NCBI GenBank assembly: GCA_024195585.1
Contig: SWBL01000113.1
Location: 79,010-143,009, forward strand
Reading direction: 5' to 3'
Length of the DNA: 64,000 nt
From: Aureobasidium sp. EXF-3400
Lineage: Eukaryota > Ascomycota > Dothideomycetes > Dothideales > Saccotheciaceae
Part shown: positions 21,333 through 25,471 of the stretch, piece after piece
Layout: every line of letters starts with the position of its first letter
Numbering within the stretch: the stretch's first letter is position 1
Program-made: the position numbers and the translations under genes
Notes under the pieces: model-generated
What the model was told of the DNA's origin: nothing
Database searches by the model: none
Seen by the model: only the letters and a program-made list of their open reading frames with translations

Positions 21333-21897
21333 AACAAGCATGGGTGTATCCACGGTACGTGTGCATTGGCGCTTCATGGAATTAGATTCGTTCTACTGTA
21401 CATTTAGCAGGAACTCGTGCCTCAGCCGGCGTTCGCAGGTCATGTAGCATTAGCAAGGCTTGGATGCAAGCATAACGACGATCTGAGTTGTTGATCTACC
21501 CATCACAGACTTAACTCGATGTTGTAGATCTCGTACAGCTGTGAACATATCTCTTTCTCCTCAAGTGATGCATATCATTCTCTGAGACTGATTCAAGACC
21601 AGAAGCATTTCGAGGAAGGTACATCTCTTCGCCGAGAGCTGTCATACATACGGGGTAGCTCTTTCCTCTTTAGGCAGGGAAGTGGTCTCGTTGCCTAAAA
21701 CGTGGACCGCCTCGACAGAAGATTCGGCAGCTGCTCACGTCCACACATCTCATTGCACCAGCCAACTCCTCCCCTTCCTCATCTTCTTCATTACACTCCT
21801 TCGACACGTTCATCTTACGTGTTCTTTGATACTACCTGTCTTTTTTCTTCTTTTCCTACGTGTTTCACCTCACTCGACACGTACCGCCTTCTCCAAG
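21333..21897. promoter_or_regulatory. intergenic with pyrimidine-rich leader of the H2B-like gene
   Basis: About 565 bp. From roughly 21740 to 21895 the plus strand is strongly C/T-rich with runs of CTTCTT and CTCC, resembling leaders of actively expressed fungal genes. The frame is open upstream of the ATG at 21898 (to 21682), but that translation is low-complexity and is judged untranslated leader. Unlike canonical core-histone genes, no divergent H2A gene lies here. Confidence 0.45.
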
Positions 21898-22872
21898 ATG
21901 CCTCCCAAGATCGCAAGAAAGCTCACTGCTGCTCAGATTCAACACGCAATCTCTCAGACGCAGCGTGTTGGAGAGTCTCAAACCGAAGAAGACGAAGATC
22001 TCCGGCGTGCAATTGCTGAGTCGCAGCGTGTGGACCAATCTCAAGCCACGCAGGAGGACGAAGTACAGCTTGACCAAGAGTCCCAAGTCGATGGCGACAC
22101 CCAGCCTGCTCAGGAGACTCAAGTCGATGAGAACACCCAGCCCGATGCAGCTGTTCCCACTAGCAGTGCTGACAGCGATGTCGTCAACGATGCATTGGCC
22201 TCGACTGCTGATGGCGCCAGTGCTGCCACCCCTGACACTGCTGCCTCTCCTGCCGATGAAGTCGAGACTAAGCCTGTCATCAAAAAACCTGCCGCAAAGA
22301 AGGTTGCGAGCAAGAAAGTTCCTGCGACTGACGGCAAGAAGGACGGTGAAGGCACCAAGAGAAAGCGTCGTCGCAAGCAAGACCCTACAAACTTCCAGGC
22401 ATACATCCACAAAGGTCTGTTTGTCTATTCACCTATCGGCACCACTCTTTGCGTATCAATGATTGACCCAGGCTCTCACAGTTCTGACACAGGTCCATCC
22501 TGGTTGTGCCATTACCAAGACGTCTATGCAGATCATGAATGACTTCATCAAAGGTAAGCAACATTCTGGCTTGTCTTTGTCATTCGAGATTATACAATTA
22601 ACATTTCATACACAGATCTTTGTCTTCGTATCGCAGACCTGGCTTCTGACCTATGCAAGAAGCTGAAGAAGGCTACCCTGCAAGCTCATGACATCCAAAC
22701 TGCGTAAGTGATATCCGCATGCTGGGTACTCCGTCCATAGCTGACCTTACTAACCCCATCGTTATATAGTACAAAGTTGGTTCTCTCGGGAGGACTCGCA
22801 AAACAAGCTCAGAGCGAAGGTGCAAAGGCCCTTCGTGCCTTCAACCAGGCCACCAAGCAAGGCCTTCGCTAG
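21898..22872 (+). CDS. divergent histone H2B-like protein with long SQ/TQ- and UIM-bearing tail
   Basis: Four exons, 21898-22414, 22482-22553, 22616-22703 and 22770-22872, encode 259 residues; junction phases agree throughout. Residues about 165-254 align without gaps to the H2B histone fold: AYIHKVLTQVHPG matches H2B SYIYKVLKQVHPD, and DIQTATKLVLSGGLAKQAQS matches [20 protein letters not shown], with SEG and KA also shared. By eye roughly 40 of about 89 positions are identical to canonical fungal H2B, so this is a variant, not the standard gene. The 160-residue tail is far longer than normal. It has ten SQ/TQ sites between residues 19 and 81, a tandem 21-residue repeat (14-34, 35-55) whose second copy fits the ubiquitin-interacting motif (EEDEDLRRAIAESQRVD), a 12-residue repeat (62-73, 74-85), an Ala/Thr/Ser linker, and a Lys-rich end with KRKRRRK. 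Ala249 sits where H2B carries its ubiquitylated lysine. It presumably dimerises with H2A-type histones in chromatin, perhaps in DNA damage signalling; that role is inference. Confidence 0.85.
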
Positions 22873-23604: not shown

Positions 23605-25471
23605 CTACTGTACCTGGACCTTGAATCCATAACCCTCCTTCCCACCAATCCAATTTTTCTTCTTTCCAATCTTTTCAATCTTTTCCATTTCCTCATGAAC
23701 GATTGAACGTAGAGAGGAAGCTTGTTTATCTCTCGTTTGTAGCACCAACATCTTGTCTCCTTTGTGCGAAACACTCCATTGCGAAGTCAGATTCATGTAT
23801 TCATTGCCGCGGCCTGAAGGATAGATGGCTCCGATCAAAGCACCCACGGCACCGAGGTAGGCACACCACCAAGATGCTTTGGAGCCAACTAACGCTTGCA
23901 TGCTGTGTAGGAAAGGAACATCTGTGGGAGGAAGGTCTTTTTTGCCGCCCCAGCGGTTGCAGAGCAACAAAGCGAGACAGGCACGTTCAGCGTGTGAGAG
24001 ACCATGGGCGTGAGCTAGGAGACCAGTGGTTGTGCAGCGCAGAGCAGCAGCAGCGCGGATATCCTTAGGATGGGACGAGAAATGCGGAGATAGATTTGCA
24101 AAAGCCTGGATAAGCGGGGTACTCAGTCCTGTGTCAGAGGCGATAGAACCAGAAGGAATAGAATGTAGAAGCAATTCAGCATGGTGAGCAGATCCAGGGG
24201 TTGCGGCAGCAGAAGTGGCAACCACGACGGGAGATTGCTTGCGGATTTCTTGAGGTAGAGTGGAGAAGAGATAGCCTTCTCTGACGCCACCTTGACAGAA
24301 ACGGACTTCTTTGATGTGAGGCAGGGCTTCTGAGAGTGCGGTGACCAGGAATGCAACAGCGGGGATTTGGGTTGCTCGTCGTTGGGAAATGCGGAAGATG
24401 GCGCTGTCGTCTTCAGAGTCGAGGTGTGAGGTAGCTGCCTGTTGCACCGATGCCGTATCCAAGAATGAGCTTCTGTCAGCGCTGAAACCATTGATGAGCG
24501 AGATTGGATAAGGCGATACGGTGTGCTCGCTCATAAGCAAAAAGCCCCAACCCCTGAACCCGCCGCCAGAGAGGTACAAAGCAAAACCACCCTGCTGTTT
24601 CGCCAACTCCTGCAGCTCAGTAGGGATACTCAAGCTGTTGTACGCATCAGTAACAGTCTGCTTGACTTCCTCAGCAAACTGCTTTCTTGCTTTTTCTCCT
24701 TGCTTCTCGGCCTCTGCAATCCGGCGAGAAAGAGCAGCAGCCCCAAAAGGCATACTAACAGCACCCCTCTCAGGCATCTTGATCTCGCCGGTCTCTGCAT
24801 CGCTGACCAACCAAGTCAACTGCGTGCTTCCACCTCCCAAATCCATAACCAGACCTTTGACTTCACCCAAAGACGTCGCAACACCCAACGCACCAACCCT
24901 ACCCTCATCCTCCTTGGCAAGCATCTTGACCTCCCATCCAGTAGCTTTCTTAATCCTATCTCTAAATTCTTGAGAATTGACAGCAGTTCTAGTGGCTTCA
25001 GTAGCGAGAACGGTAATGTTCTGCTCGGGGACGCAGAAATCGGCGCAGGTGCGTTTGAAGTGGGTCAATTTGTCGACTACTGTTTTGATCACTTCGTCCG
25101 AGATGGGAACACGTGTGCCGTTGGATGAGTATTGCGCATCGTAGAGAGAAATCCCAGCGCGCGAAGTGTATAGTGTAGGTAAGATTCTTGTTGTTGGTGG
25201 TGATAGGTCGGTGATGGAGAAGCGGATGCCATTGCTAAATTGGTGGTTTGCTGTCAGTATTTTTTCGAATTAGAGTGTACTTGCTCTTTTGCTAGTTTCT
25301 TTGTTCTTGTGAAAGATCATTGGATGTTTTTTCGTCAAGTGTTTTTAACAGCTTTTTCTGAGTCTTTCGATGGGTCTTTACAGAGAAAAGAGATAAGGAA
25401 AGAAAAATGCTTTACCTTCCCATGTCAACCAGGCCGTAAAGATGTTCGGGATCGGGTGTGGTCAACGCCAT
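23605..25471 (-). CDS. rtg2: Rtg2, retrograde-response protein of the Ppx/GppA phosphatase fold
   Basis: Two exons, 25471-25416 and 25234-23605, encode 561 residues. The 181-nt intron interrupts the nearly invariant motif DMGSNGIRFSI just after the Gly, with reading phase preserved (AG|C for Ser). The ASKHA-type ATP-binding fold of exopolyphosphatases is seen in that N-terminal phosphate-1 motif and in VMDLGGGSTQLTW (about 147-159). ALYLSGGGFRGWGFLL follows. The C-terminal half has the helical HD-like region of the family. In yeast, Rtg2 senses mitochondrial dysfunction and releases Rtg1/Rtg3 to the nucleus, and it also sits in the SLIK histone acetyltransferase complex. Filamentous fungi generally lack clear Rtg1/3 partners, so the signalling output here is unknown. 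It ends convergently with the H2B-like gene. Confidence 0.92.

Follow-up and report, generated by a model that had tools for sequence, protein, structure and literature searches.

Divergent H2B proteins are known from the mammalian germline, where H2B.L, H2B.W and H2B.N share less than 50% fold identity with canonical H2B, possess tails which do not align with it, and evolve under purifying selection overall, yet faster than the canonical protein; the H4-contact residues are altered in H2B.L and H2B.N, and most H2B.N proteins are devoid of the αC helix (PMC8857922). H2B.Z of apicomplexans and H2B.V of trypanosomes are lineage-restricted variants which are both thought to interact with H2A.Z (PMC3380720). 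Among fungi, the histone variant H4E of ascomycetes (H4v in Neurospora) is found across Pezizomycotina, has usually longer and variable tails, has no detected function, and was suggested by the authors to be of cDNA origin (PMC10878826). In oncohistone H2B E76K/Q, the contact between E76 and H4-R92 is lost (PMC8235166, PMC7949156), and oncohistone mutants have also been made in S. pombe (PMC12128920). Among the matches listed from the open-licence PMC literature, no paper describes an H2B variant gene from fungi or from Aureobasidium; a search there for an SQ/TQ cluster together with histone variant and H2B returned only a Rad9 paper.

The gene analysed here lies in a window, that is, a stretch of 64,000 nucleotides, from the hybrid-like genome assembly of the black yeast Aureobasidium sp. 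EXF-3400, and is retained in both subgenomes. It appears to encode a functional fungal variant of H2B, for which the mammalian germline H2B variants and ascomycete H4E appear to be the nearest in kind. The resemblance to the mammalian proteins (low fold identity, non-aligning tails, accelerated evolution under constraint and altered H4 contacts) is one of kind, and unlike most H2B.N the Aureobasidium protein has the αC helix. A meiotic role is doubtful, as A. melanogenum is reported to be strictly clonal (PMC9535773). The gene shares lineage restriction with H2B.Z and H2B.V, while it differs from H4E in belonging to the H2B family, in being known from Aureobasidium only and in having introns in common with its parent. 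Unlike the oncohistone mutations, its change at position 76 occurs naturally, is conserved and introduces Leu (or Thr).

Gene structure and origin

The preliminary description, made from the letters of the window, had proposed a stand-alone four-exon gene for a non-canonical H2B, aligned gap-free with H2B over its C-terminal 90 residues with about 40 of 89 positions matching, and flanked by genes for a Rab GEF and Rtg2; these points are borne out. The predicted exons (21898-22872; Table 1) join in frame to 780 nt encoding 259 amino acids plus stop, all three introns are of the GT...AG type, and 40 of the 90 fold positions are identical to the genome's canonical H2B in a gap-free alignment. The neighbouring genes inspected in the window encode VPS9-ankyrin and RTG2 proteins, with no adjoining H2A gene, and an Rfam scan of the window gave 0 matches. 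On contig C79, the syntenic copy is likewise divided into four exons of identical layout. The left flank of the gene is collinear with C79, while the segment comprising RTG2 and the DNA right of it (window 23605-25269) is inverted relative to the variant gene there (L019).

Table 1. Predicted features of the H2B variant gene and its 5' region, in window coordinates
Feature	Position	Strand	Remarks
ACGTGT/ACACGT motifs (four)	21804, 21817, 21858, 21877 (21804..21882)		Upstream of ATG
Exon 1	21898..22414	+	Opens with MPPK; acidic extension rich in SQ/TQ (residues 1-122 or so), H2B-like basic tail (residues 123-162 or so), beginning of α1; 3' end within codon V44 at phase 1 (human H2B numbering), like canonical H2B
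UIM-like stretch	21985..22029	+	EEDEDLRRAIAESQR; residues 30-44; Pfam UIM and UIM_2 scores below both gathering scores
Intron 1	22415..22481	+	67 bp; matches canonical H2B intron 1 in codon and phase
Exon 2	22482..22553	+	End of α1, loop 1, first part of α2
Intron 2	22554..22615	+	62 bp; codon D68, phase 1; not in canonical H2B; found in C79 copy
Exon 3	22616..22703	+	H4-facing half of α2 (RIADLASDLCKKLKK, E76 to L), towards α3
Intron 3	22704..22769	+	66 bp; codon 97, phase 2, equal to canonical H2B intron 2
Exon 4	22770..22872	+	α3, αC, stop; Ala at K120 position, E105 to Gly, E113 retained

The canonical H2B gene was located elsewhere in the genome, in agreement with the proposed non-canonical nature of the variant, its paralogue. 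C700 and C517 each carry exon 1 and the first part of exon 2, with H2A beside exon 1 in divergent (head-to-head) orientation, and exons 2-3 are on C108 and C567. These pieces sit at contig ends, the assembly being broken at canonical H2B at the ends of all four contigs (L020, L021, L042, L043). In human H2B numbering, the introns of the canonical gene, two in all, interrupt codon 44 (phase 1) and codon 97 (phase 2). Two of the three introns of the variant are these two by codon and phase, and the extra one falls in codon 68. Since the variant shares both canonical introns in codon and phase, it is, judged by its sequence, a DNA-level duplicate descended from an H2B gene and not a retroposed copy. 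In the tree, 16 full-fold variant sequences are split from six other H2Bs by a single branch (support 99/99), which gives no date for the duplication as so few other H2Bs are included; P0020 and P0040 are on long branches.

Besides the two introns, the variant and canonical Aureobasidium H2B have in common a fold with αC and a basic tail preceding it. The variant differs in its low fold identity, the extra intron, an acidic SQ/TQ-rich extension of about 120 residues, the absence of E76, the loss of K120 in most sequences, the absence of H2A pairing and its fast evolution, so that the near-invariance, divergent H2A pairing and K120 ubiquitin site characteristic of canonical H2B are not found in it. 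An H2A query identified six places in the genome, with canonical H2A (C700, C517) and H2A.Z (C173, C19). The PF00125 search of the genome returned 18 places, from which the variant's own short exons on C113 and C79 were absent, so a divergent H2A partner may have been overlooked.

The four motifs upstream of the ATG are the densest cluster of ACGTGT/ACACGT in the window (4 of 31). The C79 copy contains five at the matching place (L018:8477-8547), out of 8 in 10 kb of L018, and canonical H2B has one shortly 5' of the ATG on C700 and C517. The cluster is a candidate promoter element.

Fold changes, acidic tail and proposed mechanism

In 16 variant sequences, 21 of the 90 fold positions are kept in at least 15, including K85 and T88, near the second DNA-binding loop. 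Another 20 positions lack the canonical residue in 16/16 and hold a single residue in at least 13, although human H2B has the variant's residue at three of them (62, 73 and 97), which are therefore not new. Position 76 is changed from E to L and position 79 to D in 16/16 full-fold sequences, AAYN at positions 81-84 is replaced by CKKL or similar, and positions 60, 64, 67, 91, 99, 118 and 122 are further variant-specific sites. When a pattern around position 76 was used, 24 of 43 sequences matched (L in 22; T in two, P0017 and P0023), the pattern demanding variant neighbours (e.g. LC at 80-81) and thus being unable to match canonical-like sequences; P0020 and P0040, which have Glu at this position, are other H2Bs and were excluded from the count. 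Position 75 is D or E in the matched variants and could partly compensate for the lost E76. The ubiquitin site K120 is kept in 2/23 sequences, while the acidic-patch residues E113 and E105 are kept in 20/23 and 9/23, respectively, counts that are not independent as the sequences are related. H4 of this genome retains the ALKRQGR stretch, which holds R92. Where the dimer meets the tetramer, H2B-E76 is joined to H4-R92 by a salt bridge, and the contact between H2B and H4 becomes less stable when E76 is mutated (PMC8235166, PMC7949156); the mutants considered here from these papers are K, Q and A, Leu not being among them, and E76Q is described as without the chaperone binding of E76K (PMC7949156).

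The tail consists of an acidic part of about 120 residues and, between this and the fold, a basic H2B-like stretch whose last residues are KRKRRRK. Its start (MPPK followed by A6) is invariant in 14 sequences, and the block AIA.TQ is nearly so. An SQ/TQ cluster domain, the type of target recognised by ATM/ATR-type kinases, contains at least three SQ/TQ within 100 residues. The tail encoded in the window has 10 SQ/TQ against 2.68 expected, with 0/5000 shuffles as high. Among the window protein and 30 of the 42 retrieved proteins, many of them truncated models or near relatives, at least three SQ/TQ within 100 residues are present in 30/31 (exception P0014, with two), and the shuffle fraction is below 0.05 in 28/31 (exceptions P0014, 0.67; P0016, 0.096; P0032, 0.051). 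The 12 proteins omitted were P0015, P0020-P0023, P0028, P0034 and P0038-P0042; tail sequence is present in four of them (P0015, P0023, P0028 and P0034). The excess of acidic over basic residues in the tail ranges from +4 to +19 in 31/31 variants. A repeat rich in Q, T and D (TQPD, ETQVD) may have generated the SQ/TQ sites as a side effect. The second copy of the AIA.TQ block in the window, EDEDLRRAIAESQ, resembles a ubiquitin-interacting motif, and its scores for UIM and UIM_2 (15.9 and 16.5 bits) are below the Pfam gathering score of 21; with matches at E≤1 in only 2/14 (UIM_2) and 1/14 (UIM) relatives, a UIM was rejected as a conserved feature.

The protein is best read as a replacement H2B which would form labile nucleosomes and whose tail is perhaps regulated by kinases. 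The proposal as a whole, namely an Aureobasidium H2B paralogue produced by DNA-level duplication, held by purifying selection and acting through labile nucleosomes, is modestly favoured. As the fold and αC are kept, the variant very probably still dimerises with H2A through the retained core. The dimer would, on balance, dock weakly on the H3-H4 tetramer and yield labile or partial nucleosomes, since position 76 is Leu or Thr and the helix neighbours 79 and 82-84 are changed as well. H2Bub-dependent signalling is probably bypassed in most species, as K120 is gone in 21/23 sequences. Far more tentatively, the acidic extension might lie in cis near both the basic tail and the DNA-binding face and loosen, shield or self-chaperone the dimer, and Tel1/Mec1-class kinases might tune it through SQ/TQ phosphorylation, which would add charge and drive eviction or mark damage. 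A bolder and improbable extension regards the variant as the H2B-side counterpart of H2A.X, in which the E76-H4R92 lock is given up and the SQ/TQ tail lets damage kinases switch the histone from bound to evicted; if true, a single H2B acting at damaged or stressed chromatin would combine labile docking with a kinase-target cluster.

The lost E76 contact and the acidic tail (31/31 sequences) would also suit a dimer that does not dock at all, i.e. a non-nucleosomal H2B-like protein pairing with H2A or another histone-fold partner off chromatin as a storage form, decoy or chaperone-like subunit. Mammalian H2B.L, whose putative H4 contacts are altered, acts outside the nucleus in a comparable way and is reported from the subacrosome (PMC8857922). 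However, the basic KRKRRRK beside the fold and the 21 kept fold positions, K85 and T88 included, suit DNA binding, and this explanation is considered rather doubtful. Deletion and tagging of the variant should be feasible in A. pullulans, as vectors for this species have been reported (PMC11838232).

Selection in the two subgenomes

The window and C79 copies share 65.7% amino acid identity over 210 codons, with a dN of 0.23, a dS of 1.45 and a dN/dS of 0.159 (bootstrap 0.081-0.246; 0.142 for the fold only), values to be taken as rough since dS is near saturation. The neighbouring VPS9-ankyrin and RTG2 genes have a dN/dS of 0.041 and 0.149, respectively, whereas 82/82 compared residues of canonical H2B are identical between the subgenomes (dS 0.05). 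By this comparison the variant is constrained yet evolves as an ordinary protein, unlike a histone, and its coding sequences indicate that it is under purifying selection and faster-evolving than canonical H2B. The near-identity of the canonical copies extends to synonymous sites, the dS of three other genes being 0.94-1.45, for which gene conversion, strong codon bias and assembly collapse are candidate explanations.

A dN/dS so close to that of RTG2, together with the alteration of even E105 or E113 in some sequences, might be expected of a plain replacement H2B under relaxed constraint, with little special function, which persists because losing any copy of H2B would be costly. Against this, the 20 changed-and-held fold positions (including the three as in human H2B) and the tail motifs retained in 14 relatives argue that the new state is itself conserved, which makes a plain replacement unlikely. 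Several database models of relatives are truncated, exon-skipping or intron-reading (P0015, P0021-P0025, P0028), as might be seen for a decaying pseudogene or a gene-prediction artefact, but the four exons are intact in both subgenomes with in-frame indels only, and the upper bootstrap bound of dN/dS is 0.246; a pseudogene was accordingly rejected, and this explanation retains very little probability.

Family assignment and relatives

By sequence, the protein is nearer to H2B than to H2A, H3, H4, CBF/NF-Y or TAF. A profile search of its 259 residues gave 51.2 bits for Pfam Histone (cut-off 26.4) and 17.3 bits for CBFD_NFYB_HMF, under the cut-off of 21.4; hence the closer affinity to CBF/NF-Y or TAF named beforehand in the preliminary description as an outcome contrary to its proposal did not emerge. 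Among solved structures the best match is to an H2B chain (E 3.2e-38). Of 179 solved-protein matches, the 60 listed all bear H2B-type names except 6kw3_T, which is labelled H4. The same holds for the 60 listed of 195 sequences matched in the profile search against PDB. In an alignment of 14 sequences (A2), matches at E≤1 were found to Histone in 14/14 (best 9.4e-21), to CBFD in 13/14 (best 9.6e-7) and to TFIID_20kDa in 8/14 (best 2.2e-4); P0002, the only one given in full, scored 56.5 bits for Histone and 21.8 for CBFD, slightly above cut-off. NCBIfam models gave nothing over their cut-offs on three relatives, the best match of each being an archaeal histone. The predicted structure of the relative P0002 has the histone fold (α1, α2 and α3) followed by αC, in a model of mean pLDDT 55.7 and pTM 0.29 overall whose VIA list covers residues 161-257 only. 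Membership of another histone-fold family (CBF/NF-Y or TAF12-like), at which the weak CBFD and TFIID_20kDa matches might hint, was rejected and is scarcely credible in view of the much stronger Histone scores, the H2B nature of the listed solved matches, the αC helix and the two introns shared with canonical H2B.

A profile search with the 14 relatives retrieved 40 proteins at E≤0.001. The 24 that bear an organism name are all from Aureobasidium (ten species or strains: melanogenum, pullulans, uvarum, namibiae, subglaciale, mustum, vineae and three EXF strains), and the other 16 bear none. The searches for relatives were limited to proteins that are 0.55-1.75 times as long as the query and share 5-residue words with it, and the 105-aa fold alone as query gave only 9 candidates; the named relatives are thus known from Aureobasidium only, which is no proof of absence elsewhere. 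Single members are already labelled 'Histone H2B' or 'histone-fold-containing protein' in databases. The A. pullulans models P0017-P0019, P0023 and P0028 variously drop or read through the exon 2/3 borders, and public annotation of the variant in this species is unreliable because of these differences. The C79 copy (210 aa) differs by one residue from P0012 of Aureobasidium sp. EXF-12298. Besides two almost identical copies of H4 (C31 and C98), the genome contains a divergent H4-like exon (C231:29669-29830; L035), which is perhaps the ascomycete H4E variant.
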